Origin: a virus
Strand: one strand, 5' to 3'
Length of the DNA stretch: 40,092 bases
Virus record (IMG/VR): IMGVR_UViG_3300031851_000056
Location: 1-40,092 of that record
The notes below the pieces were generated by a model, which did no database searches, was not told the origin of the DNA, and saw nothing but the letters and a program-made list of their open reading frames with translations. Both the position numbers and the translations under genes were made by a program. Below are positions 20,521-39,728 of this stretch, in pieces (the stretch's first letter is position 1; every line of letters starts with the position of its first letter).

Positions 20521-23500
20521 ATGGCATTATCATTTCCTTCCAGTCCAAGTAATGGCGATACCGTAACAGCGGGCAATATTACTTGGACTTTTAACTCTTC
20601 TAAAGGCGTTTGGCAGAACAACGTTATCGGTCTGTCTGGCGCTTCTATAACTATTGCTGCCGACTCAGGCTCTGATGATCTTCTCACTCTAGGAGAAGAT
20701 ACTTTAACAATAGCAGGCGGTACGGGTTTAACAAGTACTGTTTCTGACAATCAAATATCTATAGCACTTGACAATACTGCCGTTTCTGCTGGACAGTACG
20801 GAGCGTCTAATGCTATTCCTCAGATCACAGTCGACGCACAAGGTCGAGTAACAAGTATAGCTACTGTAGATAATACTCCTACTGCGGAAATAGGCGTAGA
20901 AGACTCTATTATGGCTGCTACTGAAATAGTATCTGGCACAGCTTATGTTATAAAAGGGCTGGGAAATACGAACTGGGTAAGTCTAGGTGCAACAAGTGTA
21001 ACAGCCCCTAATTTAGTTAATGGCACACAATATATAATTACCTCAGTAGGGAATACTACTAACTGGACTGCTGTAGGTGCTGATAATACCCCCGCTGTAG
21101 GAGAGATTTTTACAGCAAATACAACGGGAGCAACAGGAAACGGTACCGGCACCGCTTTACAGACAGCTTTTACTGCATCAGGAAATGGTTCGGGTACCGG
21201 CACGGTAATGTTAAACTCTACCCACTTTGTGACTTTTGTAGATTCTCGTACGGGAACTTCAGATATCTTTGCTAGTTCTGCAATGACATACAATCCCGGC
21301 ACAAATACTTTTCAGGCAGGCAATGTTAACGGCTCATTTAGTGGATCGTTTTCAGGAGAATTTGCGGGAACCTTTACAGGTGTAAGTAGTTCAGCTTCTG
21401 TTGCTCAAACAATTAGCATTGTTAATAATGCTGGTGATGATGAAAGTATGTTTCTCATCTTGGCAGACGGCAATTCGGGAGTAAGAAATTTAGAAGGAAG
21501 CTCGGGCTTATTTTATAATCCGAACAGTACTATTCTTACTTCTCCTAAATTTGCTGGAGCTTTAACAGGTAATGTAACTGGTCAAGTATCCACACTAACA
21601 AACCATGACACTTCCGGCTTATCAGAAGACTCAAACGCAACAGTAACAAGTGGTACAATGTACTACACAGATGCTAGAGTCGCCACGAAGATTAACTCCT
21701 ATGTGACTGGATCCACTGGAATTACTGTAACCAACGGAAGCGTAAGTTTAAACGATACCACAGTAACCGGCACTAGTTATGGAAGTGCCAGTGAAGTACC
21801 TACCTATACAGTAGATGCTCAGGGTAGACTAACGGAAGCGGCAAATGTAACGATAGCAATACCGTCTACACAAATTACAGATTTCACAACAGCGGTAGAA
21901 GCAACTTTAAGTGTTGCTGGCAGTCAAACCGGAGATGGAAGTCTAACATATGACAATACCACTGGAGTATTTACATATACTGGTCCAAGTGCTTCAGAAA
22001 CAAGAGCACATATAACAGGTGGTACTGGAGTAACGATTACTAACGGCTCTATTGCTATTGATCAATCAGTTGCTACAACTGCCAATGTAGAATTTAATCA
22101 GGTAACAGCAGACTTAGTCGGCAACGCAGATACAGCTACTAGTGCGGCTGCTCTAACTACAGCTGTATCTATAGGCGGAGTATCTTTCGACGGTAGTGAA
22201 AGCATTCCCCTACCAGGTGTTAATGCTACGGGTAATCAGAACACCACCGGTAATGCAACCACAGCTACTACAGCTACTACAGCTGGGAGCTGGACTAATG
22301 CAGTAAATCTTACATTAACAGGAGCAATAACAGGTACAGCTAGTGTTCAAGGTACCGGTAATGTAACACTCGATACTAGCCTGGGGGGAACTTCAGGTAC
22401 AGTAACTATAGGTGCAGGTACTGACTCTACTCAAGATTTATCTTTTAGTACATCAGGCGCTCGTCTAGATATTGACGGAACTGCTAATGAAATAGACGCC
22501 ACTGTAAGTAAAACAGGCGAAGTAGTCACAGTACAACTAGGCTTGCCTAGCGATGTAACTATTGGGAATAATCTTTCTGTAACTAACGATTTCAGTGTGG
22601 CTACAAATAAATTTACTGTAGACGGTACAACAGGAAATACTGTAATTGCAGGAAACCTGACAATTCAAGGTACTACCACTACAGTTGATTCCAACACTGT
22701 TAACATTGGCGATAACATTATTGTTCTTAATGCTGACGAAGATGGTACTCCATCTCAGAATGCAGGAATAGAAATAGAAAGAGGAAATCAAACTAATGCC
22801 TCTTTCTTGTGGGACGAAGCTAATGATTATTGGACTACGGGCGCGTCTCATGGGTTAAATGTACCAGCATTAACAGCTACCAACATTACAGGCAATGTTG
22901 CAGGCAATGTTACAGGCAATGTTACAGGTGATGTTACAGGTAATGTTCTTGATGCTGGCGGTAATAGTGTACTATCAATTGCTACCAGTACCTCCATATC
23001 TAAATTATCAGGTAAAGCGGATAGAGCTATACAAGTACTCACTAATGAGAGTACTGCAGCCACTTTATTCCCTGTAGCTTTCTTTAATACAGGGGGAACG
23101 ACAGAAGACCAAACCTTTGGGCAGGCCAGTGCAGGCACATTTAAAACAACGTTAACGGATTCTGATACACTAAAGTACCAGCCTAGCACGGGAACACTAT
23201 ACGCTTCTAATTTCTCAGGTAACGTTGCAGGTTCCTCTAGCTCCGCGTCTACAGTTGCTATAGGTCAAGAGTTCACGAGCAGTAGTGACCATTTTCTTAC
23301 TTTTGTAAACTCGTCAGATGCAGGCAATAGATCTGTAAAAGTAGATAGTTTACTAAAATTTGTTCCGGGTACTAATACTTTATACTCTACCAACTTTAAC
23401 GGAGCACTATCAGGTAATGCAACTACTGCCTCTGCTTTGGATACCGCAAAAACCATCACTCTAGGTGGTAATTTAACGGGTAGTGTATCTTTTGACGGAT

Positions 23501-26500
23501 CGGCAAATGTAACCCTCACGGCCACTCTTAATGCAATTGCATTGGATCAGATCTCAGCAGGTACTGTACAGATTAGTTCAGAGACTTTTGCTGATAACGA
23601 CTTTACTATAATGACCTCTGCTGCAATTCAAGATAAGATTGCTGCTGATATTGCAACTTATAACTATTCAACAACTACTGGTACAGTAACAAATGTTGGC
23701 GGCGGAGCAGGTCTTACTGGCTCAATTACAACAACGGGGGCATTAGCAGTCGGTGCCGGTACACACATTATTGTTAATACTAACGATATAGCAGTAGATG
23801 TCGCATCAGCAAATACAGCGAATAAAATCGTCGCTAGAGACAGTAGCGGTAACTTTAGTGCTGGTATAGTAACAGCAGACTTAGTTGGTGATGTAACGGG
23901 TAATGTAACAGGTAACGTATCGGGGTCTTCCGGCACTGTATCAAGTTTAAGTGGATTAACTACTGCTAATTTATCAGAGAATACTAATTTATACTACACA
24001 GATGACAGAGTTCAAACTAAAGCAAGAGCCTTATTAGAACACTCCAATCATGTCGGAGCGACCGTAGCATTTGATTCAACTTCTGATGAGTTGGAAATCA
24101 CTGTCACATCTTCCAGTAATCTAAGCCTACAAGATGCCTCTAATGCGGATAGTTCTCATTTTCTTACTTTTGCAGCAGGCGCGGATGGCTCTGAGGCCAT
24201 ACTTACCGACTCAGGGTTAACTTATAATCCTAGTAGTAATATTTTATCGGCAACTTCTTTCTCAGGAGGGTGGTCAGGAACAACAATTCCTGTAGCTAAG
24301 GGTGGCACTGGACTAACATCAGTAGCGGCTGACCAGATTATATATACTACAGGCGCAGATACGTTTGGCTCCTCCGATATATCTTCGTTCGGTAGAACCA
24401 TAATCGATGATGCTGACGCATCAGCGGCCAGGACTACACTCGGCATAGGGTCTATAGCAACTCAGTCCTATACTTCTGTAAATATAGATGGTGGTGCAAT
24501 AGACGGCACTATTATTGGGGGAACGACTAAGGCGGCAGGTAGTTTTACAACTATTAATGCTACTGGTACAATTACAGGCAACTTATCCGGTAATGTTACG
24601 GGTAACGTATCAGGGACTTCTGGTTCAACAACGGGTAATGCTGCTACAGCTACAGCTTTAGCAACTGCTCAAAACTTTAGTATAACGGGCGATGTAACAG
24701 CTTCTGCAATTAGTTTTAATGGAACAAGTGCCGTTGCACTAAATACCACTCTAGCGACTACTATGAATAGTGCTAATGCTGCTACTACTCCGGGTACTTT
24801 TGGTTCAGGAACAACAATACCTCAAATAACAGTAGATGCTAAGGGAAGAGTTACCTCTGTAGCCACTGTTGCTGCAAGTTCTAGTTCCTCTCAAACAATA
24901 TCTGACGGCACCAACACAGATGCAGTAACTGCAGGTACGGATACATTAACGTTCTCTGGGGGAGAGGGAATAACTACCGCTGTTACTAATAACCAGGTAA
25001 CTATATCAGCAGAACTTGCTACAGCATCAAATAAAGGTGTTGCATCCTTTGATACGACAAACTTTTCCGTTTCTGGCGGCGCAGTAACTATTAACCCAGA
25101 AAGAGTACAAGATATAGTCGGTGCAATGGTTAGCTCCAACACTGAGAGCGGGATTACTGTTGTTTATCAGGATGATGATGGCACGTTAGATTTTGACGTT
25201 AATGACTTCACTATCACATTAGGCAATGATTTATCAGGAAACCTAACAATTACAGACCTAGCAGGTGGAACGTTGAACGCAACTATTGCTGACAACGCCG
25301 TAGCTCTAGGCACTAAAACAACAGGTAACTATGTCGCTACAATAGCTGATGCAGGCAATTCACATATTACTGTAGCCAACTCAGGCTCTGAAAGCGCTGC
25401 AGTCACTCTAAATATTGCAGATAGTGCGATTGATACGGATCAGATTGCTACCGACGCCGTAACTCTAGGAACTAAAACAACAGGTAATTATGTAGCAACT
25501 ATTGCAGACGCAGGTAACAGTGCAATAACAGTAGCTAACAGTGGCACTGAAACAGCAGCAGTAACATTAGATATTGCAGCAGAAGGTGTAGGCACTGCAG
25601 AAATTGAAAATTTAGCTGTTACTTCTGCTAAACTTGCAGATGATGCCGTTACTAACGCTAAACTAGATAGTACTACAAATTTTGAAGCTGTAAACTCGGA
25701 TGTTATTAGAACCGGTGCTATTACTACTGTTAAAATTGCAGATGATGCTGTTACTAGCGCTAAATTAGATACTAATATTCAAATTGCGGGTAATTTAACA
25801 GTTGATGGCAATTTGACAGTATCAGGAACCAGAGTACAAGTAGATGTAGAAACTCTGTCTGTAGAAGACTCCCTGATAGATCTGGCTAGAAATAACAGTA
25901 CGACTGATGCAGTTGATATTGGTTTATACGGCCTCTATGATACGACAGGCTCCCAAGATGTATATGGAGGCTTATTTAGAGATGCCTCTGACTCAGGCAA
26001 ATGGAAACTATTTAAGGATCTACAGACAGAACCCACTAGTACCGTTCTTGTAACAGGCACAGGGTATACTACAGGCACACTAGTTGCTGATATTGAAGGT
26101 AATGTTACTGGAGACGTTACTGGAGCAGCTACAAAAGTAACAGTTATAGCGGATAACAATACTAACTCTACTAATAACATTACTTTTGTCAATGCAGCCA
26201 GCGGTGACAGACAGGTCAGAACAGATAATCAATTAACTTATAATCCTAGTACGGGTACTCTAGCCGCAGGTAATATACAGGGTAGCTTGTTTGGTAACCT
26301 TGTAGGTAATGTTACTGGTAATATATCTGGCAACGTAACAGGTACAATTACAGGTGATACTTCAGGTAACTCGGGCACGGCAACAGCACTACAAAATTCC
26401 AGAAACTTTACTGTAGGTAGTACAGATGTAGCTTTTGATGGGTCGGCAGACGCAGACCTTACAGAAGCAGTACAAGATACAGTAGGAGCAATGTTTAGCT

Positions 26501-27660
26501 CAAATACTGAAAATGGTGTTACAGTAACATACGCAGATGTAGACGGTACAATAGACTTAACAGCTACTGCACTTTACAACGGTACTACAAAACAACTGGA
26601 AACTACCTCCACGGGGTTGCAAGTTTTTGGTACTATTCTTCCAGACGCTACGGAAACTTACGATTTAGGATCTCCTACTAAGAGATTTAGAAGAGGCTAT
26701 TTCGATGAAGGTACTATATTCTTAGGCACACAAGAACTTACTGCTGATAGTACCGGTATTTCTGTTTCTGGAAACTTTACCGCTAATAATATTACTGGTA
26801 CACTAACAGGTAACGCCACGGGTACAGCTTCTAGCTTAGCCACAAGTAGAAACATAACTATAGGCTCAGTAGCTCATGCTTTTGATGGGTCAGCCGATGT
26901 TGACCTAACCGAAGCTATCCAAGACACCGTAGGTGCCATGTTTAGCAGTAATACGGAAACTAATATTACTGCAACATATCAAGATTCTGATGGTACTATA
27001 GACTTAGCTGTTACGGCCGCTTCGTCAGCAGGTGGAGTAACTTCTGGAGGCAGTGTTGTAACTACTAGCGATAGCGCTCCTTCTAGCCCTAACGATGGAG
27101 CCCTCTGGTTCGATACAACCGGCTTAAAAATGTACGTCTACTATGCTGATGGCAGCTCGTCTCAGTGGGTAGAGAGTACACCAGGAGCAGGAGCAAGCTC
27201 AGATTCAGCTGCAGTAAGTATAAGTGAGACAGGCCCCTCTAATCCTGACGAGGGTGCCCTGTGGTTTGACCCAAGTAACTTAACACCTTATATCTATTAT
27301 AATGATGGAAATAGTTCTCAATGGGTTGAACTTACACCCGCGCCTTCAGGAGCAGGAGGAAGTGGGGTAGTTAAGTTTGCAGAACAAGCAGCTTCCGCAA
27401 CACTTGTAGCAGGCAACAAAAAAATAGTAGATACTTCTTCGTCAGCTATTACATTGACTCTCCCAGGCACGGCGTCCATTGGAGATGAAGTGCATATAAT
27501 TGATGGTACAGGAAATGCTTCTACTAACAATATAACTATAGCTAGAAATGGGCATAAAATTCAGGGTGCTGCGGAGAACTTAATAGTCTCTACTGATAGA
27601 GCGGCCTTTCAGTTAGTATACTATAACGCTAATAACGGCTGGGTTCTCATAAATAGGTAA
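20521..27660 (+). CDS. Very long tail fibre protein (2,379 residues)
   Basis: This is the largest gene in the window and probably forms a long trimeric fibre. It begins with the shared anchor module (residues 1-36: MALSFPSSPSNGDTVTAGN, ending KGVWQ). Then come two copies of a GTAYVIKGLGNTNW-type domain (~136-235), many short beta repeats with TGNVTGNV, a module at ~717-772 (TTTTVDSNTVNIGDNIIVL, then QNAGIEIERGNQTNASFLWDE), a 53-residue duplication near ~1595-1700, three VQD(I/T)VGAM(V/F)SSNTE modules (~1530, 1982, 2131) and two LWFD…QWVE modules (~2182-2270). The last ~100 residues (VVKFAEQAASATLVAGN … FQLVYYNANNGWVLINR) look like a compact fibre tip. All parts are low-complexity Thr/Gly/Asn/Ser-rich. 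The receptor is unknown. AGGGG before the ATG supports the start. Confidence 0.85.
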   Translation: MALSFPSSPSNGDTVTAGNITWTFNSSKGVWQNNVIGLSGASITIAADSGSDDLLTLGEDTLTIAGGTGLTSTVSDNQISIALDNTAVSAGQYGASNAIPQITVDAQGRVTSIATVDNTPTAEIGVEDSIMAATEIVSGTAYVIKGLGNTNWVSLGATSVTAPNLVNGTQYIITSVGNTTNWTAVGADNTPAVGEIFTANTTGATGNGTGTALQTAFTASGNGSGTGTVMLNSTHFVTFVDSRTGTSDIFASSAMTYNPGTNTFQAGNVNGSFSGSFSGEFAGTFTGVSSSASVAQTISIVNNAGDDESMFLILADGNSGVRNLEGSSGLFYNPNSTILTSPKFAGALTGNVTGQVSTLTNHDTSGLSEDSNATVTSGTMYYTDARVATKINSYVTGSTGITVTNGSVSLNDTTVTGTSYGSASEVPTYTVDAQGRLTEAANVTIAIPSTQITDFTTAVEATLSVAGSQTGDGSLTYDNTTGVFTYTGPSASETRAHITGGTGVTITNGSIAIDQSVATTANVEFNQVTADLVGNADTATSAAALTTAVSIGGVSFDGSESIPLPGVNATGNQNTTGNATTATTATTAGSWTNAVNLTLTGAITGTASVQGTGNVTLDTSLGGTSGTVTIGAGTDSTQDLSFSTSGARLDIDGTANEIDATVSKTGEVVTVQLGLPSDVTIGNNLSVTNDFSVATNKFTVDGTTGNTVIAGNLTIQGTTTTVDSNTVNIGDNIIVLNADEDGTPSQNAGIEIERGNQTNASFLWDEANDYWTTGASHGLNVPALTATNITGNVAGNVTGNVTGDVTGNVLDAGGNSVLSIATSTSISKLSGKADRAIQVLTNESTAATLFPVAFFNTGGTTEDQTFGQASAGTFKTTLTDSDTLKYQPSTGTLYASNFSGNVAGSSSSASTVAIGQEFTSSSDHFLTFVNSSDAGNRSVKVDSLLKFVPGTNTLYSTNFNGALSGNATTASALDTAKTITLGGNLTGSVSFDGSANVTLTATLNAIALDQISAGTVQISSETFADNDFTIMTSAAIQDKIAADIATYNYSTTTGTVTNVGGGAGLTGSITTTGALAVGAGTHIIVNTNDIAVDVASANTANKIVARDSSGNFSAGIVTADLVGDVTGNVTGNVSGSSGTVSSLSGLTTANLSENTNLYYTDDRVQTKARALLEHSNHVGATVAFDSTSDELEITVTSSSNLSLQDASNADSSHFLTFAAGADGSEAILTDSGLTYNPSSNILSATSFSGGWSGTTIPVAKGGTGLTSVAADQIIYTTGADTFGSSDISSFGRTIIDDADASAARTTLGIGSIATQSYTSVNIDGGAIDGTIIGGTTKAAGSFTTINATGTITGNLSGNVTGNVSGTSGSTTGNAATATALATAQNFSITGDVTASAISFNGTSAVALNTTLATTMNSANAATTPGTFGSGTTIPQITVDAKGRVTSVATVAASSSSSQTISDGTNTDAVTAGTDTLTFSGGEGITTAVTNNQVTISAELATASNKGVASFDTTNFSVSGGAVTINPERVQDIVGAMVSSNTESGITVVYQDDDGTLDFDVNDFTITLGNDLSGNLTITDLAGGTLNATIADNAVALGTKTTGNYVATIADAGNSHITVANSGSESAAVTLNIADSAIDTDQIATDAVTLGTKTTGNYVATIADAGNSAITVANSGTETAAVTLDIAAEGVGTAEIENLAVTSAKLADDAVTNAKLDSTTNFEAVNSDVIRTGAITTVKIADDAVTSAKLDTNIQIAGNLTVDGNLTVSGTRVQVDVETLSVEDSLIDLARNNSTTDAVDIGLYGLYDTTGSQDVYGGLFRDASDSGKWKLFKDLQTEPTSTVLVTGTGYTTGTLVADIEGNVTGDVTGAATKVTVIADNNTNSTNNITFVNAASGDRQVRTDNQLTYNPSTGTLAAGNIQGSLFGNLVGNVTGNISGNVTGTITGDTSGNSGTATALQNSRNFTVGSTDVAFDGSADADLTEAVQDTVGAMFSSNTENGVTVTYADVDGTIDLTATALYNGTTKQLETTSTGLQVFGTILPDATETYDLGSPTKRFRRGYFDEGTIFLGTQELTADSTGISVSGNFTANNITGTLTGNATGTASSLATSRNITIGSVAHAFDGSADVDLTEAIQDTVGAMFSSNTETNITATYQDSDGTIDLAVTAASSAGGVTSGGSVVTTSDSAPSSPNDGALWFDTTGLKMYVYYADGSSSQWVESTPGAGASSDSAAVSISETGPSNPDEGALWFDPSNLTPYIYYNDGNSSQWVELTPAPSGAGGSGVVKFAEQAASATLVAGNKKIVDTSSSAITLTLPGTASIGDEVHIIDGTGNASTNNITIARNGHKIQGAAENLIVSTDRAAFQLVYYNANNGWVLINR
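22888..22947 (+). repeat. Five tandem copies of a 12-base unit coding for TGNV
   Basis: The unit ACAGG(C/T)AATGTT is repeated five times with few changes, coding for TGNV/AGNV/TGDV at residues ~790-809 of the long fibre. Similar TGNVTGNV stretches occur near 21570, 23890, 24590, 26095 and 26300. Being multiples of three, gains or losses would keep the frame. Confidence 0.85.
25306..25623 (+). repeat. Direct duplication of a 159-base (53-residue) unit in the long fibre
   Basis: The sequence starting CTCTAGG(C/A)ACTAAAACA at 25306 recurs at 25465, an offset of 159 bases. Both copies code for LGTKTTGNYVATIADAGN then ITVANSG(S/T)E(S/T)AAVTL. The copies are strongly similar in protein and diverged mostly at third positions, so the duplication is old but conserved. 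Confidence 0.8.
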
Positions 27661-27664
27661 TAAA

Positions 27665-29359
27665 ATGACAAACTATATAGACATTAAAACAATATCAGCA
27701 GGTGTATCTACTACAACTGTGGCTGATATGGGAGCTTTGGCAGCTTTAACAGGAGTGTCCTCCGGAGATCAAGCATATGTTACTGCTAATAACAAGTTTT
27801 TCTTGTATAATGGATCCGGTTGGTACCTAATTGCAACAGTACAGAATAACGCTCCAAGCAGTATAACAGGAGTTAATTCTAGCTATGAGCTTCTTCAGAA
27901 TGGCACAGCAACTACCGTTACCGCGGTATCTACAGACCCCGAAGGCTTCCCTCTTACATGGTCCTATGCTGTTACAACCGGAGCTTTAGGGTCTACGGCT
28001 ACTGTATCACAAGCAGATAATGTGTTCACTATAACTCCTTCTACTTCGACTGGAGGAACCTTTACTCTTACTTTCAGTGCTACTGATGGTACGAACGGAG
28101 CAGTGAGTGCCGCGGCAGCATTTAGCTTATCTTTTGGTATAGACGTAACCTACCAAAGGGCTGTAACAGACCCCGATAATGATACGACTTTTTTCGATAG
28201 ACTCGACTCAGAGATTAGCGTAGGGGGCAATCGTTTAGCAGTTCCTAGGCTTGATGCAACAGCAGCAGACCAAGAAATACACTTATATTCTATAGATGAC
28301 GGAAGTTTCGAGAGAAGTATACCCGCCGAGTCTGGTAGAGACGCTTTTGCTTGGCTGGGATATGCACTACAGCTGTCTCCCAATGGCACCAGATTAGCCG
28401 CAGGATCTATGTACGAGCCAATGAGCGGTACATATACTAGAACAGGTGTGGTTGATATATACAATGCGGCAACGGGAAGTTTAATAAGAACACATAGTAA
28501 CCCCGTTACAAATGTCTCTAACGGCTACTTTGGTAATGGAGTTGCCTGCAATAATACATATGTTGCGATTTCATCGAATAACGCTACTTCCGGGTCTAGA
28601 AAAGGGATAATTTATATTTACAACTTATCAGATGGGTCTCTAGAGAGAACTATTGAAAATCCTACTACTGTTGTCTCGGGGTACGCCGATAAGCACTTTG
28701 GGGCATGTATGGATATGAGCGGCGACTATCTTATTGTAAGTCACCAAAAAGAAACTGTTTCAAGTAATGACTATGTAGGAGCAGTTTATATTTATGATTT
28801 ATCCGATGGTAGTTTACTAAGAAAAACTTCTTGGCCCTCTGACTTTACTTACTATTCAGATTCTACTCCTAATTTTGGACATCTTGTTAAGTTTAATTCA
28901 GATGGAAGCAAGTATGCCGTAACTGCACTTAGGAATCTTCCTGCTGCTTCTGCGGATGCAACCACGCAGAAAGGCTTAGGACGTGTTTATGTATTTAATA
29001 CATCTACTGGCAGTCTTGAGAATACTTTTACAAATCCAAATACTGGGGGGCAGGTATATAACAGCTCTACCAGCGAAACTATATTCGGGTTTGACCTCGA
29101 CTTTAATAATTCTCAAATATTTATAGGAGATCATCGCTACGGAGATTCAAGTAATCGTTTTCTTGGAAGAGTGTATGAGTATGACCTATCTGATAGCTCT
29201 TTAACAGCCACTATTGATAAACCAACTTCATTGGATTCTGGCTCTGTAGACAGTTTTCAAGAGCTAGGAAGAGGGGTTAGGATATCAGCAAACAACGAAT
29301 TAATTATTACATGTACTGGAGCAGGTACGAGGCGTGTAATAATATACGGAGCCTCGTAG
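27665..29359 (+). CDS. Fibre tip or adhesin with Ig-like domain and seven-bladed beta-propeller (type A)
   Basis: The 564-residue protein lacks the shared anchor module but has the same second module as the gene at 35358: residues ~18-65 (ALTGVSSGDQAYVTANNKFF, then WYLIATVQNN), followed by a cadherin-type Ig-like domain (~65-158; STDPEGFPLTWSYAV, VSQADNVFTITPS). Residues ~160-564 hold seven repeats with an inner strand such as VYIYDLSDGSL: IHLYSIDDGSF, VDIYNAATGSL, IYIYNLSDGSL, VYIYDLSDGSL, VYVFNTSTGSL, VYEYDLSDSSL, VIIYGAS. That is a seven-bladed propeller of the WD40/quinoprotein-like type, ending exactly at the C-terminus. No catalytic residues were recognised; carbohydrate or protein binding on the host surface is inferred. 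A weak AGG precedes the ATG. Confidence 0.7.
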   Translation: MTNYIDIKTISAGVSTTTVADMGALAALTGVSSGDQAYVTANNKFFLYNGSGWYLIATVQNNAPSSITGVNSSYELLQNGTATTVTAVSTDPEGFPLTWSYAVTTGALGSTATVSQADNVFTITPSTSTGGTFTLTFSATDGTNGAVSAAAAFSLSFGIDVTYQRAVTDPDNDTTFFDRLDSEISVGGNRLAVPRLDATAADQEIHLYSIDDGSFERSIPAESGRDAFAWLGYALQLSPNGTRLAAGSMYEPMSGTYTRTGVVDIYNAATGSLIRTHSNPVTNVSNGYFGNGVACNNTYVAISSNNATSGSRKGIIYIYNLSDGSLERTIENPTTVVSGYADKHFGACMDMSGDYLIVSHQKETVSSNDYVGAVYIYDLSDGSLLRKTSWPSDFTYYSDSTPNFGHLVKFNSDGSKYAVTALRNLPAASADATTQKGLGRVYVFNTSTGSLENTFTNPNTGGQVYNSSTSETIFGFDLDFNNSQIFIGDHRYGDSSNRFLGRVYEYDLSDSSLTATIDKPTSLDSGSVDSFQELGRGVRISANNELIITCTGAGTRRVIIYGAS

Positions 29360-29368: not shown

Positions 29369-32300
29369 ATGGCATTTACAGATTTTACAAATAGCCCAAA
29401 TAATGGGGATACTATCACAGTTACAGGTGGAGTGTATACCTATATCTCCGCTAAAGCTAGATGGGATTTTACTCCTTCAGCTTCCGCCTCCTCAGTAACC
29501 TCTGAAGAAGTACAAGATATTGTAGGAGCTATGTTTAGTTCTAACACCGAGACAGGTATAACAGCTACTTATCAAGATGTGGATGGAACAATCGATATAG
29601 TTATAGCTGATGATGGTATTGATTCGCAGCATTACGTAGATGGTAGTATTGACACAGCTCATTATGCTGATAACTCTATTACAGGTGATGAACTAGCTGA
29701 TAATATAGTAATAGCAGGCACACTTCAAGCAGCTGGAGGTTCAACTAACGGTGTAGCAATATCACAAGGTGCTATAGAAATTAAAAATGGCGGCTCTAAG
29801 TCTTATATAGATTTATACTGTGAATCAGGTAATGCTCACTATACTAGAATAGAGGCGGCTGCTCACTCAGCATACTCAGGAAATGTTACTGTAACTTTAC
29901 CCACATCAACAGGTACACTTGCTCTTACTTCCGGCGATATTACAGGATCAGCAGCTACTTTAACTACTTCAAGAAGTATTGGAGGAGTAGCTTTTAACGG
30001 TTCCGCAGATATTAGCTTACCCGGTGTTAACACTACAGGAAGCCAAGATACTACAGGAAATTCTGCCACGTCCACCACCTTAGCTACAGCTAGAAATATA
30101 GGTGGGGTATCATTCAATGGTTCTGCCGATATTAACTTGCCCGGCGTTAATGCAACAGGTAATCAGAACACCACTGGCTCTGCAGCTACTATAACTACCG
30201 CTAGAAATATAGGTGGGGTATCATTTAATGGCAGCGCAGATATTAACCTACCTGGAGTTAATGCATCTGGTAATCAAGATACTTCTGGTAATGCAGCCAC
30301 AGCCACTACTCTGGCAACAGCTAGAAGTATAGGTGGAGTGTCTTTTAACGGTTCTGCCGATATTATTCCTAATATTGTAACTGATACTACTCCCCAGCTC
30401 GGGGGCAGCTTAGACGTTAATGGTAATACAGTAACCTCAACAAATAATGGAAATATAGAAATAGACCCCGATGGCTCTGGCTTATTTAAAATAAAAGGAA
30501 ATTCAACTGCAGGGTCGGGCTCTTTAACTCTTAACTGTGAGCTTAACAGTCATGGAATAAAACTACAAGGGCCTCCTCATAGCGCGGGTGCTTCTTATAC
30601 TCTTACTTTTCCGGATAATGACGGTAATGCAGATCAAGTAATAAAAAGTGATGGAAGCGGAAACCTAGCTTTTGTAGATCAAATAAAAACAATTCAAGCA
30701 GAGCTTACTATATCTGATGCTGCTTCTGCCGGAGATGTTATTGTATATGAATCTGCAAATTCTCAGTATGCAACGGCCGGAGAAAGCACTATAGCGGCTT
30801 CTGTAAATAGCGTTTTGTCTTCTGTTAGCAGTGTATTAGACACATCATCATATGCAACAAACGGAGTACTAGTGCCTTCTTACAGCAGTAAAATATTTAT
30901 TGCAACGTATGAAAGTAGTTCGTACTATTTTAGATGGATTACTCCAAATACTAATGGAACATTTACTATAGGAAGTACAAACTCTTTACCTAGTATAGCT
31001 AGCAGTGGAATACAAGGTATGTTTTTAGTAGCTAGCAATAAAATTGTTCTAGTTGCTGATGATTCCTCAAACACTATATATAATGTAGGAACGATTAATA
31101 CTTCTACTGGTGCTATTTCTTGGCAAGCAAGCAATAGCACATTGTGGAGTGGTACTACTAGCCATATCGGGCAAAATGCATTCGTTTATGATGATAATGA
31201 TGGTAAATGGATAGTAACATACGTAGATGGCAATGGGCTCTCGCAAATAAGAGCACTCACATATGATAGCAGTAATGACAGTATAGCCGCAGGCTCGGTA
31301 GTAGCACTAAAAACTGGGACTCCAATTAGTTATTATAGTTCAAATATAGCGTATGACCCGACTAAAAATGCAGGATTAGTTATTTATGGTGTCGGTAACA
31401 CTACCGCCACTATCAAAGTATACTATAGGAAATGGACTTCTTCTAATGGCACTATTACACTCGGGACAGAGACGGAGCTAACAGCAGCTACCGGGACCCT
31501 GACCCCTAATCCTCTCGGAGCTAATATTGTATTTAACCCTATAGTAAACAGATTTTTAATGATATACGGGTGTACTTTTAATGATGGATTTAATACCAGA
31601 ACCCGAAAAACTCTTTATAACAGTGCCACCATAGAAACTAATGGTACAGTAACCATAGCAAATAAAGGGTCGCATGAAGTAACTCATGACTACCTTTTTT
31701 CTTCCCCGGAACGGTTGACAATAGATACAGATACGGGAACTTCTATGATTCTTACGAACGGTAGTTATAATAGCAACCGTAGAACTAGACTCGATAGACT
31801 TACTATGGCGGCCAACGGTGCTGTGAGCGTTTCAGCTACTACTATTGAAACGGGAGGTGTTAGTATTTATATGGGCCCTCTTGTCTATAGTCCTTTAGTA
31901 AAGAAGACTATGGCTATTATAAGAGAGAACGGTTCTGCTTCAGATTTTAATTCTGTACAAAATAGTATTACGGAAAGTAATATTGATAATACAATAGTAG
32001 GCATTGCTGAAGAGGCTATCTCAGCAGGAGCCACAGGAACGGTAAATCTAGTAGGGGGCTTGGACAATAATCAATCGGGTTTAACAACAGGCTCTACGTA
32101 TTATCTTACTTCTAACGGAACTCTGAGTACCACTGCCGATAGTTATAACAAGAAACTAGGTATTGCTATTTCAGCAACAGAACTAGTGATGGAGCATACT
32201 ACTGTGGCTGCGGGAGGCTCGGGAGATATAGAAGGAGTAACGGCAGGAACAGGACTCTCTGGAGGAGGTACTTCAGGTAGTGTAACTTTAAATGTTGCAG

Positions 32301-33592
32301 ATCTAACAGTATCTGAGCTGGCTGCGGATTCAATACAACTAAGCTCCGAGTCTTTTGTCGATAATGATACATCTTTGATGACTTCCGCAGCAATTGAAGA
32401 TAAAATTTTAAGTTACGGCTATTCAGCTGGAGGTATCGGTTCTGTGCTTGCCGATACTACCCCACAGCTTGGAGGATCGTTAGATGTTAATGGACAAAGC
32501 ATTATAAGTGCCAGTAATGGCAATATAGCCATTACTCCTAATGGTACAGGCGATATTATACTAGATGGCCAAAAATGGCCTCAAGCTGATGGAAGTGCTA
32601 ATCAAGTTTTGAAAACAGATGGTTCTGGGCAGCTCAGTTGGGCTGCCCAAAGTGGTGGGGGAGGCGGAGCTTCAGTATCTACTTCGGATACGGCTCCAAG
32701 TAGTCCTTCATCAGGAGACTTATGGTTTGATACAACTGAGCTAACTCCCTATATTTACTACGCTGATGGTAGTAGTAACCAATGGATTGAATTCGCAAAT
32801 CCGGACGTGGGAGGAACAGCAGGACTTGCTTTAAATGATATATCAGATGTTTCTACTTCTGGTGTATCGTCTGGTCAAGTATTGAAGTATAACGGATCTA
32901 GCTGGGCACCCGCTGCGGACTCAACAGGAACCGGAGGAATAGCTTCTGTAGTTGCTGATACTACACCGCAACTTGGAGGCAACTTAGATGTTAACGGGCA
33001 GGACATAGTCTCTGCCAGCAATGGAGATATTGAGCTAGATCCAAACGGTTCCGGTGTAGTTATATTCAAGGGAAATGCAACTAAGGGTGCTGGTCAATTT
33101 AAGTTAAACTGTGAGAACAATTCACATGGAATAACTATTAAGGGACCGCCGCATAGTGCTGCTGCTTCTTACACTTTGACACTACCTAATAATGACGGAG
33201 ATGCGAATCAAGTTCTTAAAACAGATGGTTCTGGGCAGCTCAGTTGGGCAGCACAAAGTAGTGGTGGAGGAGGTCTTGTAAAAGCATATAGGTACGATGC
33301 AGTACTAGCAACTAATGTCAGCACAAAACGTATTTATTTACATCAAGCATTTTCCTCGGTATTAATAGACGCGTTTGTGTCTGTTGCTCCTGCAGGATCT
33401 AATGCCACTTTTTCTATAAAGAAAAACGGCACTTCGTTTCAAACAATAACAATTACGGATGGAAATACTTCCTCTGTTAATACTAACAATACCACTGCAT
33501 TTGCAGAGGGAGATTATATAACTGTAGATATTACAGCAGTAGGAAGTACTACTGCTGGAGAAAATCTATACCTTGTACTTTCATTTTCATAA
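29369..33592 (+). CDS. Long tail fibre with embedded seven-repeat beta-propeller (type B)
   Basis: This 1,407-residue protein starts with the shared anchor (MAFTDFTNSPNNGDTITV … KARW). Then follow a VQDIVGAMFSSNTETGI module (~48), four IGGV(A/S)FNGSADI repeats (~202-332) and a TDTTPQLGGSLDVNG module that recurs at ~1027 and ~1196. Residues ~487-863 contain seven repeats with strands FIATYESS, IVLVADDSS, WIVTYVDGNG, GLVIYGVGN, FLMIYGCTF, SMILTNGSYN and TMAIIRENG, probably a propeller inserted in the fibre. A known fibre domain follows (VGIAEEAISAGATGTVNLVG … GLTTGSTYYLTSNG), then one LWFDTTELTPYIYYADG module (~1105-1140) and a beta-sandwich end (ATFSIKKNGTSFQTITITD … ENLYLVLSFS). AGGAG overlaps the previous stop. 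It probably forms a second long fibre with a lateral binding head. Confidence 0.78.
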   Translation: MAFTDFTNSPNNGDTITVTGGVYTYISAKARWDFTPSASASSVTSEEVQDIVGAMFSSNTETGITATYQDVDGTIDIVIADDGIDSQHYVDGSIDTAHYADNSITGDELADNIVIAGTLQAAGGSTNGVAISQGAIEIKNGGSKSYIDLYCESGNAHYTRIEAAAHSAYSGNVTVTLPTSTGTLALTSGDITGSAATLTTSRSIGGVAFNGSADISLPGVNTTGSQDTTGNSATSTTLATARNIGGVSFNGSADINLPGVNATGNQNTTGSAATITTARNIGGVSFNGSADINLPGVNASGNQDTSGNAATATTLATARSIGGVSFNGSADIIPNIVTDTTPQLGGSLDVNGNTVTSTNNGNIEIDPDGSGLFKIKGNSTAGSGSLTLNCELNSHGIKLQGPPHSAGASYTLTFPDNDGNADQVIKSDGSGNLAFVDQIKTIQAELTISDAASAGDVIVYESANSQYATAGESTIAASVNSVLSSVSSVLDTSSYATNGVLVPSYSSKIFIATYESSSYYFRWITPNTNGTFTIGSTNSLPSIASSGIQGMFLVASNKIVLVADDSSNTIYNVGTINTSTGAISWQASNSTLWSGTTSHIGQNAFVYDDNDGKWIVTYVDGNGLSQIRALTYDSSNDSIAAGSVVALKTGTPISYYSSNIAYDPTKNAGLVIYGVGNTTATIKVYYRKWTSSNGTITLGTETELTAATGTLTPNPLGANIVFNPIVNRFLMIYGCTFNDGFNTRTRKTLYNSATIETNGTVTIANKGSHEVTHDYLFSSPERLTIDTDTGTSMILTNGSYNSNRRTRLDRLTMAANGAVSVSATTIETGGVSIYMGPLVYSPLVKKTMAIIRENGSASDFNSVQNSITESNIDNTIVGIAEEAISAGATGTVNLVGGLDNNQSGLTTGSTYYLTSNGTLSTTADSYNKKLGIAISATELVMEHTTVAAGGSGDIEGVTAGTGLSGGGTSGSVTLNVADLTVSELAADSIQLSSESFVDNDTSLMTSAAIEDKILSYGYSAGGIGSVLADTTPQLGGSLDVNGQSIISASNGNIAITPNGTGDIILDGQKWPQADGSANQVLKTDGSGQLSWAAQSGGGGGASVSTSDTAPSSPSSGDLWFDTTELTPYIYYADGSSNQWIEFANPDVGGTAGLALNDISDVSTSGVSSGQVLKYNGSSWAPAADSTGTGGIASVVADTTPQLGGNLDVNGQDIVSASNGDIELDPNGSGVVIFKGNATKGAGQFKLNCENNSHGITIKGPPHSAAASYTLTLPNNDGDANQVLKTDGSGQLSWAAQSSGGGGLVKAYRYDAVLATNVSTKRIYLHQAFSSVLIDAFVSVAPAGSNATFSIKKNGTSFQTITITDGNTSSVNTNNTTAFAEGDYITVDITAVGSTTAGENLYLVLSFS
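29972..30365 (+). repeat. Four repeats of a ~111-120-base fibre unit
   Basis: Copies begin at 29972, 30092, 30203 and 30323 (spacing 120, 111 and 120 bases). Each codes for (S/N)IGGV(A/S)FNGSADI followed by LPGVN and a T/G/N-rich tail. A related single copy lies in the 2,379-residue fibre near 22165. Confidence 0.85.
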
Positions 33593-33608
33593 TTAAGGAG
33601 ATTCAATT

Positions 33609-34805: not shown

Positions 34806-34817
34806 GAGTATTATAAC

Positions 34818-35036: not shown

Positions 35037-35039
35037 TTT

Positions 35040-35357: not shown

Positions 35358-37106
35358 ATGGCAATTAACTTTACAGATAGCCCTAGCGATGGAGCTACTA
35401 TTACAGCAAATGGAACAACATATACATACAGAAGTGCTTCTACAAAATGGGAGATTACAGCATCTAGCATAATATCCCCGGTAACAGCAGTTGCTAATAT
35501 GACAGCATTAGTTGCGTTAACAGGAATGGCTACAGGTGACCAAGCATTTGTTACTGCTAATAATAAACTTTTTCTGTATAATGGTACGGGGTGGTATTTA
35601 GTCGCAACAGTGCAAAATAACTCTCCAAGTGCAATAACGGGTGTTAGTAGCAATTATGCTCTTGCCACAGACGGAACAGCAACTACTATTACAGCAGTAT
35701 CTACAGACCCAGAAGGCATTCCTCTTACATGGTCTTATGCCGTTACTACAGGCTCGTTGACTAACGGAGGAGGCGCGAGTGCTACTGTATCCCAAGCAGA
35801 TAATGTGTTCACTATAACTCCTACTACTAATACTTCTTATGCGGGAACATTTAGTATTACATTTAGCGCTACTGATGGTGTTACGGGTGCTGTGAGTGCT
35901 GTCAGTGCCTTTACTCTAACATTCGCGGCGGATTGGTCTTCCGTTTCTCAGCAAGCTAAGATACAATCTTCTGATATACAAGCAGGAGACCAGTTTGGGG
36001 TAAATGTTCACATAGCTACAAATGGTGATACAGTAGTGGTTGGGGCGCAGGCAGAAGATACAGGGGGCACAACCGCAGGCGCTGTATATGTTTTTACGCG
36101 CTCAGGAACCACATGGTCTCAGCAAGCTAAACTACAGCCGTCCGACGTAGCTGCGGGGGATACAGCAGGTTTTCAAGTCTCTATTTCGGGGGACGGAAAT
36201 ACTCTTGTATTAGCCTCCCACGGTGATGATACTGGTTATACAGGAGCGGGGGCTGCATATATATTTACTCGCTCAGGAACTACATGGTCCCAGCAAGCTA
36301 AATTAGTTGCTTCTAACCCGGGAGAGTACGATTCTTTTGGAAAAGGAGTTGGTATTTCTACTGATGGTAATACAGTACTAGTAGGTGCAACTGGCGAAGA
36401 TACTGGAGTTACTGACGCGGGGGCTGTCTATGCTTTTACTAGGTCAGGAACTACTTGGTCCCAACAAGCTTTCATACAATGCTCTGATCGAGCACAATAC
36501 GATGGATTTGGAGCCCAGATAGCCGTGTCAAGCAATGGAAACGATGCTATTATAGGAGTGAAGGAAAAATCTGGAGGAGGTGCTGCATATGTATTTACTC
36601 GTTCTGGCACTACTTGGTCTCAACAAGCTAAGATACTATCTTCAGACTTGCAAACAGGGGATGCATTCGGAAGTAATGTAGATATTTCGGATAATGGTGC
36701 TACAGTCATTGTTGGGGCCCCTACTGAGGACACAGGGGCCTCAAATGTTGGTGCCGCATATATATTTACTCGTTCAGGTACTAGTTGGTCTCAACAACAA
36801 AAAATACAAGCTTCCGACAAACAGATTTACGATAACTTTGGAATAGCTGTTGGCTTAGACACAACAGGAGATCTAGCTATAATAGGAGCTAATTATGAAG
36901 ACACAGACTACGGTAATGCTGGAGCTGCTTATGTTTTCACAAGGGACGGGACTACTTGGTCAGAAGAGTCAAAAATAACTCCTACTGACTCAGCTAGAGC
37001 AAGTAATGATCAATTCGGATATCATTTAGCAATTAGCAGCGATACTGCTATTGTAGGCGGTTTTAACGTTGAAGGTGAAGGCGCTGCCTACATATTTACA
37101 GCATAG
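35358..37106 (+). CDS. Adhesin with shared anchor, Ig-like domain and seven-bladed FG-GAP-like propeller (type C)
   Basis: The 582-residue protein begins with the anchor (MAINFTDSPSDGATITANG … TKW, residues 1-33), then the ALTGMATGDQAFVTANNK module and a cadherin-type Ig-like domain (~85-190; STDPEGIPLTWSYAV) shared with the gene at 27665. Residues ~191-582 form seven repeats with (V/A)Y(V/I/A)FTRSGTTW followed by SQQAK; the repeat Tyr codons lie at 36087, 36258, 36429, 36588, 36759, 36930 and 37089, spaced 57 or 53 residues. The last repeat ends at AYIFTA and the segment WSSVSQQAKI before repeat 1 would complete its blade, the usual circular closure of a propeller. FG-GAP-like propellers commonly bind proteins or glycans. 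GGGGGA precedes the ATG. Confidence 0.75.
   Translation: MAINFTDSPSDGATITANGTTYTYRSASTKWEITASSIISPVTAVANMTALVALTGMATGDQAFVTANNKLFLYNGTGWYLVATVQNNSPSAITGVSSNYALATDGTATTITAVSTDPEGIPLTWSYAVTTGSLTNGGGASATVSQADNVFTITPTTNTSYAGTFSITFSATDGVTGAVSAVSAFTLTFAADWSSVSQQAKIQSSDIQAGDQFGVNVHIATNGDTVVVGAQAEDTGGTTAGAVYVFTRSGTTWSQQAKLQPSDVAAGDTAGFQVSISGDGNTLVLASHGDDTGYTGAGAAYIFTRSGTTWSQQAKLVASNPGEYDSFGKGVGISTDGNTVLVGATGEDTGVTDAGAVYAFTRSGTTWSQQAFIQCSDRAQYDGFGAQIAVSSNGNDAIIGVKEKSGGGAAYVFTRSGTTWSQQAKILSSDLQTGDAFGSNVDISDNGATVIVGAPTEDTGASNVGAAYIFTRSGTSWSQQQKIQASDKQIYDNFGIAVGLDTTGDLAIIGANYEDTDYGNAGAAYVFTRDGTTWSEESKITPTDSARASNDQFGYHLAISSDTAIVGGFNVEGEGAAYIFTA
36087..37106 (+). repeat. Seven propeller repeats of 159-171 bases
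   Basis: Repeat starts at 36087, 36258, 36429, 36588, 36759, 36930 and 37089 give spacings of 171, 171, 159, 171, 171 and 159 bases. The FTRSGTTWSQQAK core is nearly identical in protein between units, while DNA differs mostly at third positions, so selection rather than recent copying keeps it. Confidence 0.9.
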
Positions 37107-37128
37107 ATTTCCAAAGGAGAAATAAAAA

Positions 37129-38331
37129 ATGGCAATTAATTTTACAGACAGTCCCAGTGATGGCGATACTATTACGGCAAACGGTAAAACATACACGTAT
37201 GAGAGTAGTAGTGCTAAGTGGAAAGCATCTGCGGCAGATAGTGGTGGCGGAGGTGGTGGTGTAACTACATATGCAAATATAGCAGCTCTTCCTAGCTCAG
37301 GAAATACTGGAGGAGACCTAGCATTTGTAACGGATGTGAAAGCTTTTTATGGCTGGGATGGCACAGAGTGGGATAGAGTTTTTTCAGGGAAAAATATGCT
37401 TCCTGAGTTCACTACTAGTCCAGCAGCTTCCTACGACCTAGCAGCTGACGGCACAGCAACTACTGTTACTGTAGCTGCTACAGACCCCGAAGGGTTTGCT
37501 GTTAGTTATAGTCACGATACCTCTCCAACTAATCAAGCTCAAGCTACAATTACTCAGAGTGGAGGTACATTTACAGTAACTCCTAGTACCTCTAGTTCTA
37601 ATGCGGGAACATTTACTGCTAGATTCAAGGCTTTTGATGGTGTAAGAACTAATAGTGCTTCTTCAACATTTAAGCTTAGCTTTTATCCTGGAGGCATCTC
37701 CCCTTACGGTTGGTGGGATTTTGGTGAGTCTTCTAGTTACGGAGGGTCAGGCACTACTTGGTCAGATATTTCCACTAATAGTAATGATATGACTTTTTCA
37801 GGAGGTACTTACACATCAAGTAGTAGTACCCATAGTGTTCCCACAATGCAGTTTGATAATTCAGGGGGCAACTTCATATTTCCTTCGGATGTTAGGTCTA
37901 ACGCCAAGACATATGTAATGATATTCTATCAACCTACAAATGCTAACTTTATGCTGATGGGGGACGGTACGACTTCTCGCTATCATTTTTACTTCGTAAA
38001 TGGTAATGCTGGACTTTTTAACGCTCCGGGCTTCTCTGCTTGGACAGGAGAGACTATACTACATTATGTAAATGGCTCCACACCTCCTACAAGTAAAGAT
38101 GTGGCTGCTGATGCTCTTGACTACACAAAGTATAATATGGCTGCTGTAACAGGTCTGGATGTGACTTCTCACTCATATAGGTGGATGGGCTATTCTGGTC
38201 TACAGAGAGCGGCGCACGTAAGAGCAGTACTAGCATATGATAGTATATTAACAACGACTCAATTGGCATCAATATCTAGTTATTATAGCGACGAGCTAGG
38301 ATCTAGCAATATGACAGCTTGGTCATCATAG
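37129..38331 (+). CDS. Adhesin with shared anchor, Ig-like domain and LamG-like lectin domain (copy 1)
   Basis: The 400-residue protein starts with MAINFTDSPSDGDTITANG … KW, then a Gly-rich hinge (GGGGGG, ~38-44), a small module with NIAALPSSGNTGGDLAFVTD … YGWDGTEWDRVFSGK, an Ig-like domain (~97-187; DPEGFAVSYSHDTSPT, FTVTPSTSSSN), and from ~190 a LamG/concanavalin-type lectin: YGWWDFGESSSY … TTWSDISTNSNDMTF, ending with AVLAYDSILTTTQLASISSYY. These last motifs are usual in LamG-type domains on virion and secreted proteins and point to sugar binding on the cell surface. AAAGGAG precedes the ATG. It is a close tandem relative of the next gene. Confidence 0.75.
   Translation: MAINFTDSPSDGDTITANGKTYTYESSSAKWKASAADSGGGGGGVTTYANIAALPSSGNTGGDLAFVTDVKAFYGWDGTEWDRVFSGKNMLPEFTTSPAASYDLAADGTATTVTVAATDPEGFAVSYSHDTSPTNQAQATITQSGGTFTVTPSTSSSNAGTFTARFKAFDGVRTNSASSTFKLSFYPGGISPYGWWDFGESSSYGGSGTTWSDISTNSNDMTFSGGTYTSSSSTHSVPTMQFDNSGGNFIFPSDVRSNAKTYVMIFYQPTNANFMLMGDGTTSRYHFYFVNGNAGLFNAPGFSAWTGETILHYVNGSTPPTSKDVAADALDYTKYNMAAVTGLDVTSHSYRWMGYSGLQRAAHVRAVLAYDSILTTTQLASISSYYSDELGSSNMTAWSS
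37259..37671 (+). repeat. Tandem duplicated segment, copy 1 (413 bases)
   Basis: This segment aligns with 38641-39053 over 413 bases without a gap. Identity rises toward the 3' half (Ig-like domain), where long stretches are identical, and then falls sharply where the two lectin domains begin. Confidence 0.9.
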
Positions 38332-38348
38332 TAGAATAAGGAAATAAA

Positions 38349-39728
38349 ATGGCAATTAACTTTACAGATAGTCCCAGTGATGGAGACACAATAACAGCAG
38401 ACGGTAGGACTTATACTTACAATAGTTCGGCTGCAAAATGGAAAATTACTGCTAGCAGTAGTGGTACTGGGTCTCCTATGGCGATCTCTGACACAGCTCC
38501 GGGCAGTCCTTCAAGCGGAGACTTGTGGTTTGATACAACTGAACTAGTACCTTATATTTACTATGCGGATGGAACTAGTAACCAGTGGGTTGAGTTTTAC
38601 CCTGCTTCTGGCAGCTCGGGAGGAGGAGGAGGAGGAGGGGGTGTAACTACGTATGCAAATATAGCAGCTCTACCTAGCTCTGGTAATACTGGTGGAGATC
38701 TAGCATTTGTAACAGATGTAAAAGCTGTATATGTGTGGGATGGTACGGAGTGGGATAGACTTTTTAGTGGACAAAATATGCTTCCTGAGTTTACTAGTAG
38801 TCCAGCCGCTTCTTACGACCTAGCAACTGATGGTACAGCAACTACTGTAACAATAGCTGCTACAGACCCCGAAGGGTTTGCTGTTAGTTATAGTCATGAT
38901 ACCTCTCCAAGTAATCAAGCTCAAGCTACAATTACTCAGAGTGGAGGCACATTTACAGTAACTCCTAGTACCTCTAGTTCTAATGAAGGAACATTTACTG
39001 CTAGATTTAAGGCTTTTGATGGTGTAAGAACTAATAGTGCTTCTTCAACATTTTCATTAGGTTTTGGCCCAGATAGTATATCAGGCTTAATAGGTTGGTG
39101 GGACTTTGGAGACTCCACTAGCTATGGAGGGTCAGGCACTACTTGGACTGATATTTCTTCTAATAGTAACAATATAACTTTTAGCTCGGGAACATATTCT
39201 TCTAGTACAAGTGCACATAGTGTAGCTGCAATGCAGTTTACACTGGGCGGGTATGGTACAGGAAACTTTGCCTTTCCTAGTGCGCTTGCGAGCACAGCTA
39301 AAACTGTTATTCTAATTTATCATACACCGACTTCTCTAGCGAATACTCTCCTGTGGAACTTAGGAACCAACAGTTCTAGTTATTTGTATGTAGCACAAGA
39401 TGCAGGTACCTCAGCACCTTTTGGCGGCTATAGCCCTCACAGCGGAGAAAGTATAGTTCATAGAGCTAATGGTAGTACCGCTTTGAGTACTAGAGATGCC
39501 ATATTCGACGCGCTTGATGTTACTAAATATAACAGTGCTATAATCTCAGGAGCCGTATTCACTAGTGGTACCAGGTTTAATGGATATATTACTGGCAGCT
39601 TTAGAAAGTCGCATGATGTTAGAGCACTTGTTGTTTTCGATAGTGTATTAACAACAACTCAAATGGAACTAGTACACAGCTATTATAGGTCTCAATTAGG
39701 AGCTTCAAATATGACAGCTTGGTCATAA
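38349..39728 (+). CDS. Adhesin with shared anchor, QWVE module, Ig-like domain and LamG-like lectin (copy 2)
   Basis: The 459-residue protein repeats the plan of the gene before it with one extra module. Order: anchor (MAINFTDSPSDGDTITADG … KW), SDTAPGSPSSGDLWFDTTEL … IYYADGTSNQWVEF (~44-83), a long Gly run (~93-100), NIAALPSSGNTGGDLAFVTD, Ig-like domain (~155-240), and a LamG-like lectin from ~245 (IGWWDFGDSTSYGGSG, TTWTDISSNSNNITF … ALVVFDSVLTTTQMELVHSYY). The lectin is clearly related to that of copy 1 but much more diverged than the upstream part, suggesting selection for a different ligand. TAAGGA precedes the ATG. It is the last gene of the operon, ending before a bidirectional terminator. 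Confidence 0.75.
   Translation: MAINFTDSPSDGDTITADGRTYTYNSSAAKWKITASSSGTGSPMAISDTAPGSPSSGDLWFDTTELVPYIYYADGTSNQWVEFYPASGSSGGGGGGGGVTTYANIAALPSSGNTGGDLAFVTDVKAVYVWDGTEWDRLFSGQNMLPEFTSSPAASYDLATDGTATTVTIAATDPEGFAVSYSHDTSPSNQAQATITQSGGTFTVTPSTSSSNEGTFTARFKAFDGVRTNSASSTFSLGFGPDSISGLIGWWDFGDSTSYGGSGTTWTDISSNSNNITFSSGTYSSSTSAHSVAAMQFTLGGYGTGNFAFPSALASTAKTVILIYHTPTSLANTLLWNLGTNSSSYLYVAQDAGTSAPFGGYSPHSGESIVHRANGSTALSTRDAIFDALDVTKYNSAIISGAVFTSGTRFNGYITGSFRKSHDVRALVVFDSVLTTTQMELVHSYYRSQLGASNMTAWS
38618..38640 (+). repeat. GGA triplet run coding for a polyglycine hinge
   Basis: GGGAGGAGGAGGAGGAGG-type sequence codes for about eight glycines between the QWVE module and the next domain. The matching place in the preceding gene (near 37240-37258) has a shorter GGT/GGC/GGA mix. 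Slippage in triplets would change hinge length without breaking the frame. Confidence 0.8.
38641..39053 (+). repeat. Tandem duplicated segment, copy 2 (413 bases)
   Basis: Partner of 37259-37671, with the same length and no gaps in the alignment read by eye. The two copies lie 1,382 bases apart. Confidence 0.9.

Follow-up and report, generated by a model that had tools for sequence, protein, structure and literature searches.

A shared N-terminal module on a run of modular adhesin-like genes in a marine phage with a T5-like tail

The locus and its shared N-terminal module

The window, i.e., the whole stretch of 40,092 nucleotides that was analysed, is a genome fragment (40 kb) from a siphovirus of marine type whose tail is T5-like. 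The fibre region is preceded by genes for a capsid protein, the tail tube, an overlapping chaperone-type pair, the tape measure, the distal tail protein, and a 1932-aa tip protein. The tape measure is related to the pb2 proteins of T5-like phages, and profile comparison identified the product of the gene starting at 17629 as a p132/BppU-N relative (E 1.5e-4 to 8hqz_Q, 0.0075 to T5 p132). The window thus holds both the p132-type collar protein and the pb2-type tape measure that mark T5-like lateral tail fibres. The fibre/adhesin genes from 17629 to 39728 all have the same orientation, and the intervals between them measure -8 to 56 nt (Table 1; genes are referred to by their start positions). 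When a phage collection was searched at the DNA level with the whole region, no match was obtained.

Table 1. Features of the fibre and adhesin region (positions in the window)
Feature	Position	Strand	Basis
T5 p132/BppU-N-like collar protein; candidate platform, anchor specificity unsupported	17629..17982	+	profile
Anchor-like hairpin, C-terminus of the 97-aa protein 20218-20511, directly before the first anchored fibre	20398..20511	+	
Anchor, 2379-aa fibre gene (20521-27660), divergent	20521..20628	+	alignment, profile
Two anchor-like hairpins towards the C-terminal end of the 20521 product, residues 2183-2221 and 2235-2273	27067..27339	+	
Sixth gene, anchorless; connector and Ig-like block 27713-28135, FG-GAP-like region	27665..29359	+	
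Anchor, 1407-aa fibre gene (29369-33592), divergent	29369..29479	+	alignment, profile
Propeller-like region embedded in 29369, with the module behind it	31142..32194	+	homology to L004 gene 8285
Internal anchor-like hairpin of the 29369 fibre	32684..32797	+	
Anchor, 582-aa FG-GAP adhesin (35358-37106)	35358..35465	+	alignment, profile
Connector and Ig/cadherin-like block of 35358	35484..35924	+	sub-threshold Cadherin_5 match, E 0.0058
FG-GAP propeller head of 35358	35973..37103	+	Pfam FG-GAP_2, 7 stretches, E 1.3e-80
Anchor, 400-aa LamG adhesin (37129-38331)	37129..37236	+	alignment, profile
Connector and Ig-like block of 37129	37252..37683	+	95% aa / 93% nt to L005/L006
LamG/concanavalin-like head of 37129	37693..38328	+	iterated profile, relatives' Pfam
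Anchor, 459-aa LamG adhesin (38349-39728)	38349..38456	+	alignment, profile; three strands in model
Second hairpin behind the 38349 anchor	38487..38603	+	model, profile
Connector and Ig-like block of 38349	38643..39074	+	sequence comparison
LamG/concanavalin-like head of 38349	39084..39725	+	model, structure match, iterated profile
Terminator-like stem-loop with T-tract, end of the adhesin gene run	39736..39755	+	

An earlier note on this DNA had claimed that five genes, starting at 20521, 29369, 35358, 37129, and 38349, share a module at their start. All five ORFs exist, and each begins with a module of about 36 residues, referred to here simply as the anchor. On alignment, the other four copies were 78, 73, 50, and 43% identical to that of 37129. 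A profile made from other phages only, with all window sequences excluded, matched five of five genes, with E between 8.5e-21 and 7.2e-8 and each match beginning at residue 1; no anchor match at E<0.01 appeared in 200 shuffles of 13 proteins. The claim of a common start module is thus borne out. The consensus form given for it, MAINFTDSPSDG, holds literally for 35358, 37129, and 38349, but not for 29369 and 20521, whose anchors are divergent members of the module.

In a model of the 38349 product the anchor showed a three-strand pattern with moderate confidence (pLDDT about 60). Comparison of the anchor with solved structures gave sub-threshold matches only (phiKZ gp184 in 8y6v, E 0.2), and a PHROG scan of the five anchored genes matched tail-fibre families other than that of T5 pb1. 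No earlier description of the shared N-terminus was found in the open-access literature. The anchor is a previously unnamed module that has no matching Pfam family.

Heads and internal blocks

The FG-GAP-like propeller proposed for 35358 was recovered by Pfam (FG-GAP_2, PF14312), with a score of 265.9 bits against a cut-off of 23. The heads of 37129 and 38349 had been read as LamG lectins. A direct Pfam scan of these heads gave no LamG match, and their direct profile comparison with LamG heads gave no link until relatives had been collected. Iterated profile search tied both to the phage Laminin_G_3 family, and Laminin_G_3 (PF13385) was matched by 67 of 78 head relatives; an A10 profile for the LamG heads reached E 1.5e-20 in the PDB. 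The 38349 head was modelled confidently from 78 sequences (pLDDT 85.8, pTM 0.87), and the model matched the tailspike of cyanopodophage Pan3 (Z 11.5, 171 residues, 3.5 A) and also the lectin domain of trans-sialidases. A full-length 38349 model from 12 sequences was unreliable in the head (pLDDT about 30) and was set aside in favour of the 78-sequence head model. Hence, a ConA-like jelly roll and the Laminin_G_3 family profile support the reading of both heads as LamG lectins. For the propeller said to be embedded in 29369, the outcome was mixed: the region is related to a propeller-like part of gene 8285 in the sister phage L004 (E 1e-15), but no Pfam repeat matched it. The compact tip named for 20521 stays a putative fold.

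The sixth gene, 27665, lacks the anchor and retains internal modules, as had been noted; its connector and Ig-like block is 67% identical to that of 35358 over 164 aa. Its N-terminus, MTNYxxIK, belongs to an alternative recurrent type, M[TA]NYxxI[RK], which was found in seven distinct proteins, six of them adjoining anchored genes.

By sequence comparison, domain swapping is directly apparent at residue 185 of the 37129 product. Residues 42-185 are 95% identical (DNA 93%) to L005/L006, and the head that follows residue 185 is unrelated. Against gene 11425 of L003, 37129 shows 82% DNA identity over its first 558 nt and is divergent afterwards. Within the adhesin region, paralogous blocks reach up to 88% identity over 300 nt.

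The module in other phages

In 110 loci, 147 of 152 anchor matches lay at most 12 aa from the ORF start, many of these loci having been collected by a pattern that included the start, with the other matches in the same loci behaving alike. Four of the remaining matches had an evidently over-called start, with a methionine at the module, and one was truly internal. When the profile was used without its first residues, 142 of 143 matches were still start-bound.

The earlier note had asked whether different heads follow the anchor in related phages. Across the 110 loci at least 55 C-terminal types were found: by their C-termini, the 125 complete anchored proteins sorted into 55 clusters at E 1e-3 and 59 at E 1e-5. 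At least two anchored ORFs were present in 54 of 94 loci, and the heads were all different in 24 of 36 multi-gene loci. Pfam families behind the anchors included LamG_3, FG-GAP, Gly_rich_2, Collar, the S74 chaperone, and others. Four distinct anchored proteins were lambda gpM-like tail-tip proteins, not adhesins. The smallest anchored proteins, of 70-112 aa, have little beyond the anchor.

The anchor is present in T4-, T5-, and T7-like phages, with up to nine copies per record. Among T4-like cyanomyoviruses it was found in the isolate S-H34 (nine matches), in ACG-2014f (four matches), and also in P-SSM2; in T4-like isolates the anchored genes adjoin baseplate-wedge genes. In the T7-like S-TIP28 it precedes a putative pectin-lyase protein, and the sister phage G011 has six anchored genes in a single run. 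Cellular genomes gave three weak anchor loci only, against 194 confirmed viral stretches. The head clusters, the arrays, and the domain swap largely support the earlier idea of a multi-adhesin array with exchangeable heads: as in known multi-adhesin systems, several genes have one N-terminal module and different C-terminal binding domains.

Hairpin relatives of the anchor

The anchor was found to be homologous to an internal hairpin of the form APSSPSxGDLWFD...YIYYxDGxSSQWVE (hhalign 95.6%, E 1.3e-8), homologues of which sit within fibres and at their C-termini. In the model, anchor and hairpin have an equal three-strand pattern, with moderate confidence. Comparison of the internal hairpin with solved structures gave nothing meaningful. 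In gene 10221 of L024, tandem hairpins lie immediately behind the anchor. The homology to internal and C-terminal hairpins weakens a unique docking role for the anchor.

Anchors are more alike within a virus than between viruses, even when the remainders of the proteins are unrelated (0.549 against 0.469, p 5e-4). This similarity was considered as proof of a common dock and was ruled out by a control, since internal hairpins are likewise more alike within a virus (0.64 against 0.53). As the effect is equal for the two, a common dock cannot be read from the similarity of the anchors.

Proteins of the 20218 type, which end in the hairpin, were directly followed by an anchored gene in six of six cases. 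In the sisters L011, G007, and G009, where the anchor was undetected, the counterpart of 20218 forms a single protein with a long fibre. Beyond the 20218 type, no other anchorless proteins with a hairpin end were found adjoining anchored genes. The six pairs and the fusions hint faintly that the C-terminal hairpin of 20218 may be an alternative partner of the anchor.

Probable joint expression, and anchored proteins in virions of a relative

No strong terminator was found within the gene run before the stem-loop at 39736, and no inverted-repeat pair of at least 40 nt, such as would mark a Gin/Cin-type invertible switch, was found in 17500-40092. The single strand, the short gaps, the one terminator-like site after the last gene, and the lack of inverted repeats favour simultaneous production of the proteins, and they speak against the switchable host range that had been suggested.

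The earlier note had also asked whether anchored proteins are incorporated into particles. In the proteome of CsCl-purified virions reported for the relative S-CREM2, a cultured cyanophage (PMC10665884), gp114 is listed with seven unique peptides (15.6% coverage) and gp127 with one peptide (8% coverage). In each of the two the anchor starts at residue 1 (E 5.9e-14 for gp114, 1.9e-17 for gp127). The short tail fibre gp126, listed there with six peptides (PMC10665884), has a degenerate anchor copy that falls below threshold; gp113 is anchored and is absent from the virion proteome list (PMC10665884). The link of these virion proteins to the anchor is drawn here and does not appear in the accessible text of PMC10665884. 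Thus, for S-CREM2, the incorporation of gp114 and, by a single peptide, of gp127 is shown, and the possibility that the short adhesins are absent from particles is contradicted. The FG-GAP virion protein of S-TIM5 was considered as further virion evidence and rejected, as it is without the anchor.

Discussion

It seems somewhat probable to us that the five genes encode modular virion adhesins that are expressed together, and that the anchor serves their assembly from the N-terminus. Its residues would form a small three-stranded beta-meander, a start-bound version of the fibre-shaft hairpin. This meander most likely caps the oligomer formed by the adhesin, presumably a trimer, and seats it, by insertion or stacking, at the tail tip or the fibre base. 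The seating may come about by pairing with the same hairpin on neighbours, e.g., the C-terminus of the 97-aa 20218 protein. Recombination at domain borders would swap what follows: shafts, the connector and Ig block, and heads, whether LamG lectins or propellers of the FG-GAP and other types. Through such exchange one phage could carry several receptor binders together, and those of the present phage may be assembled jointly on its particle.

The anchor could instead be only the first unit of the fibre shaft, a cap that nucleates the oligomer or a linker, with no docking partner and with attachment left to other parts or to other proteins. The homology and equal strand pattern of the internal hairpin, the tandem hairpins of the L024 gene, and the lack of a constant partner across phages all fit this explanation. 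However, the anchor is almost never internal and its hairpin relative almost always is, so the start version seems to have been selected for the N-terminal position, and the smallest anchored proteins contain little else; we regard a mere shaft unit as unlikely, yet to be taken seriously. The proteins might also be segments of a single long fibre joined end to end and not adhesins standing side by side; 20218 would lead into 20521, and 29369 and the short proteins would supply further segments or tips. The hairpin end of every 20218-type protein ahead of an anchored fibre, and the fusion of the two proteins in sisters where no anchor was detected, would agree with this, but the pattern is limited to the 20218/20521 pair and such a fibre appears improbable.

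Docking on the T5 p132-like collar, with the 17629 product as the receiving site, had been put forward earlier and would resemble the L-shaped fibres of T5, in which about 50 N-terminal fibre residues probably thread between p132 subunits (PMC10038345); the relationship of 17629 to p132/BppU-N agrees with it. However, the sisters G007 and G009 have a collar homologue and no detected anchor, and several anchors occur with no detectable collar homologue in the long records G013 (101 kb, eight anchors), G034 (99.8 kb), G018, G022, G027, and others, in a comparison limited by divergence and by records that may be fragments. Co-occurrence as a general rule was therefore rejected. Since anchors and p132-like proteins occur separately, a general partnership of anchor and collar is not demonstrated and docking on the 17629 product is unsupported as a rule; even with a phage-specific use included, we find it quite improbable. 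Very improbable, in our opinion, is a silent or recombining store of cassettes expressed one adhesin at a time. Its paralogous blocks could recombine, but the region has no inverted repeats, no recombinase was recognised among the window ORFs that were read, all the genes are open and separated by short gaps with no strong terminator between them, and two anchored proteins are listed for one S-CREM2 virion preparation (PMC10665884).

To return to the assembly module, its occurrence on many marine phages and on two virion proteins of S-CREM2 makes it look like a widespread attachment of exchangeable receptor binders. How receptor binders are attached and swapped in marine phages is largely unknown because most of these phages are uncultured. 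A start-bound anchor that spans three tail types and dozens of head types is a simple handle for finding adhesins in metagenomic phages, and with S-CREM2 and S-H34 in culture the attachment question is now testable. It is conceivable, though rather unlikely, that the anchor is a near-universal plug by which contractile, long-tailed, and short-tailed marine phages swap whole adhesins and carry up to nine together, with plug and socket drawn from the same hairpin family, also on the lambda gpM-like tail-tip ring protein.

The architecture is akin to the branched fibres of T5-like phages and to the tailspikes of Ackermannviridae; its mark is a compact, start-bound module found across tail types. 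With T5, where the L-shaped fibre pb1 sits on the p132 collar (PMC10038345), the window shares a pb2-like tape measure, a p132-like protein, and fibre genes downstream. Here, however, there are several short adhesins against one fibre in T5, and the sisters keep collar genes with or without a detected anchor. The LtfA/LtfB fibres of DT57C and DT571/2 (PMC4728585) likewise place two or more fibre proteins on a T5-like tail, with different receptor heads and with recombination that alters specificity. LtfB is believed to be carried by LtfA, and a shared N-terminal module is unreported for them, whereas in the present group one sister (L024, L025) has as many as six genes with the module. Ackermannviridae tailspikes, e.g., TSP1-4 of CBA120 (PMC8825819, PMC11414711), are several receptor binders with modular N-termini on one baseplate; there the XD domains of TSP4 and TSP2 build branches and one protein holds the baseplate anchor, whereas here each adhesin bears the same 36-residue module. 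The collar/short-fibre arrays of the T4-like cyanomyoviruses S-H34, ACG-2014f, and S-CREM2 have the same anchor on consecutive genes with different heads and baseplate-wedge neighbours, but their tails are contractile and the annotation of the genes goes no further than tail collar fibre, tail fibre, or hypothetical; no description of a shared module in these arrays was found in the records or in the open-access literature. PF13385 and PF14312, the head folds of 37129/38349 and of 35358, are known, and they are combined here with the unnamed anchor.

Shared N-termini and anchored proteins

No anchor was detected in one sister phage (record G009, locus L028). Its fibre genes have a common N-terminus, MALxxIPxExxSTPxIVDxxNATAITIDxSENVGIG, that differs from the anchor and appears to be another module used with this type of tail. 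A second recurrent N-terminus, M[TA]NYxxI[RK], was found in the window (27665-29359); seven distinct adhesin-like proteins carry it, and six of these adjoin anchored genes.

One anchored protein, from the sister phage G011 (L024:14796-16334), has a Peptidase_S74-like chaperone sequence as its C-terminal end; some of the anchored proteins, at the least, therefore resemble fibres that process themselves. At four loci from other phages, the protein that follows the anchor is a lambda gpM-like minor tail protein (PF05939). At L052, one of the four, a fibre gene separates the end of the tape measure from the anchored gpM-like gene.

A candidate internal copy of the hairpin, the module homologous to the anchor, was seen in phiKZ gp184 (PDB 8y6v chain I, residues 74-101), with a non-significant E of 0.2. 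If real, it could reveal the placement of the module in a virion.

Array and collar genes

Three array genes of the window gave no significant match to Pfam or PHROG. Homologue-like genes (MYAKLKF...) of the one encoding a 398-aa protein occupy a comparable location in L004 and L030, and in L030 small genes also lie downstream, as in the window. Between the tip and collar genes, sister phages have variable small genes; the window has none there, unlike L012, L016, L014, and L017. Two conserved neighbouring collar-region proteins have a similar end motif.

Coordinates of the features described
Feature	Location	Remark
Fibre genes with shared non-anchor N-terminus	L028 (record G009)	three genes, reverse strand
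Anchor + gpM-like protein	L052:3707-4228	
Anchor + gpM-like protein	L064:214-744	
Anchor + gpM-like protein	L069:1678-2208	
Anchor + gpM-like protein	L075:998-1528	
Array gene	window 33609-34805	398-aa protein; no significant match
Array gene	window 34818-35036	no significant match
Array gene	window 35040-35357	no significant match
Collar-region protein	window 17975-18397	LDAGAF / LDGGTF-type end
Collar-region protein	window 18416-20161	LDAGAF / LDGGTF-type end
Tip-to-collar small genes	L012:16957-19094	variable
Tip-to-collar small genes	L016:17262-19384	variable
Tip-to-collar small genes	L014:16470-17099	variable
Tip-to-collar small genes	L017:17340-18529	variable
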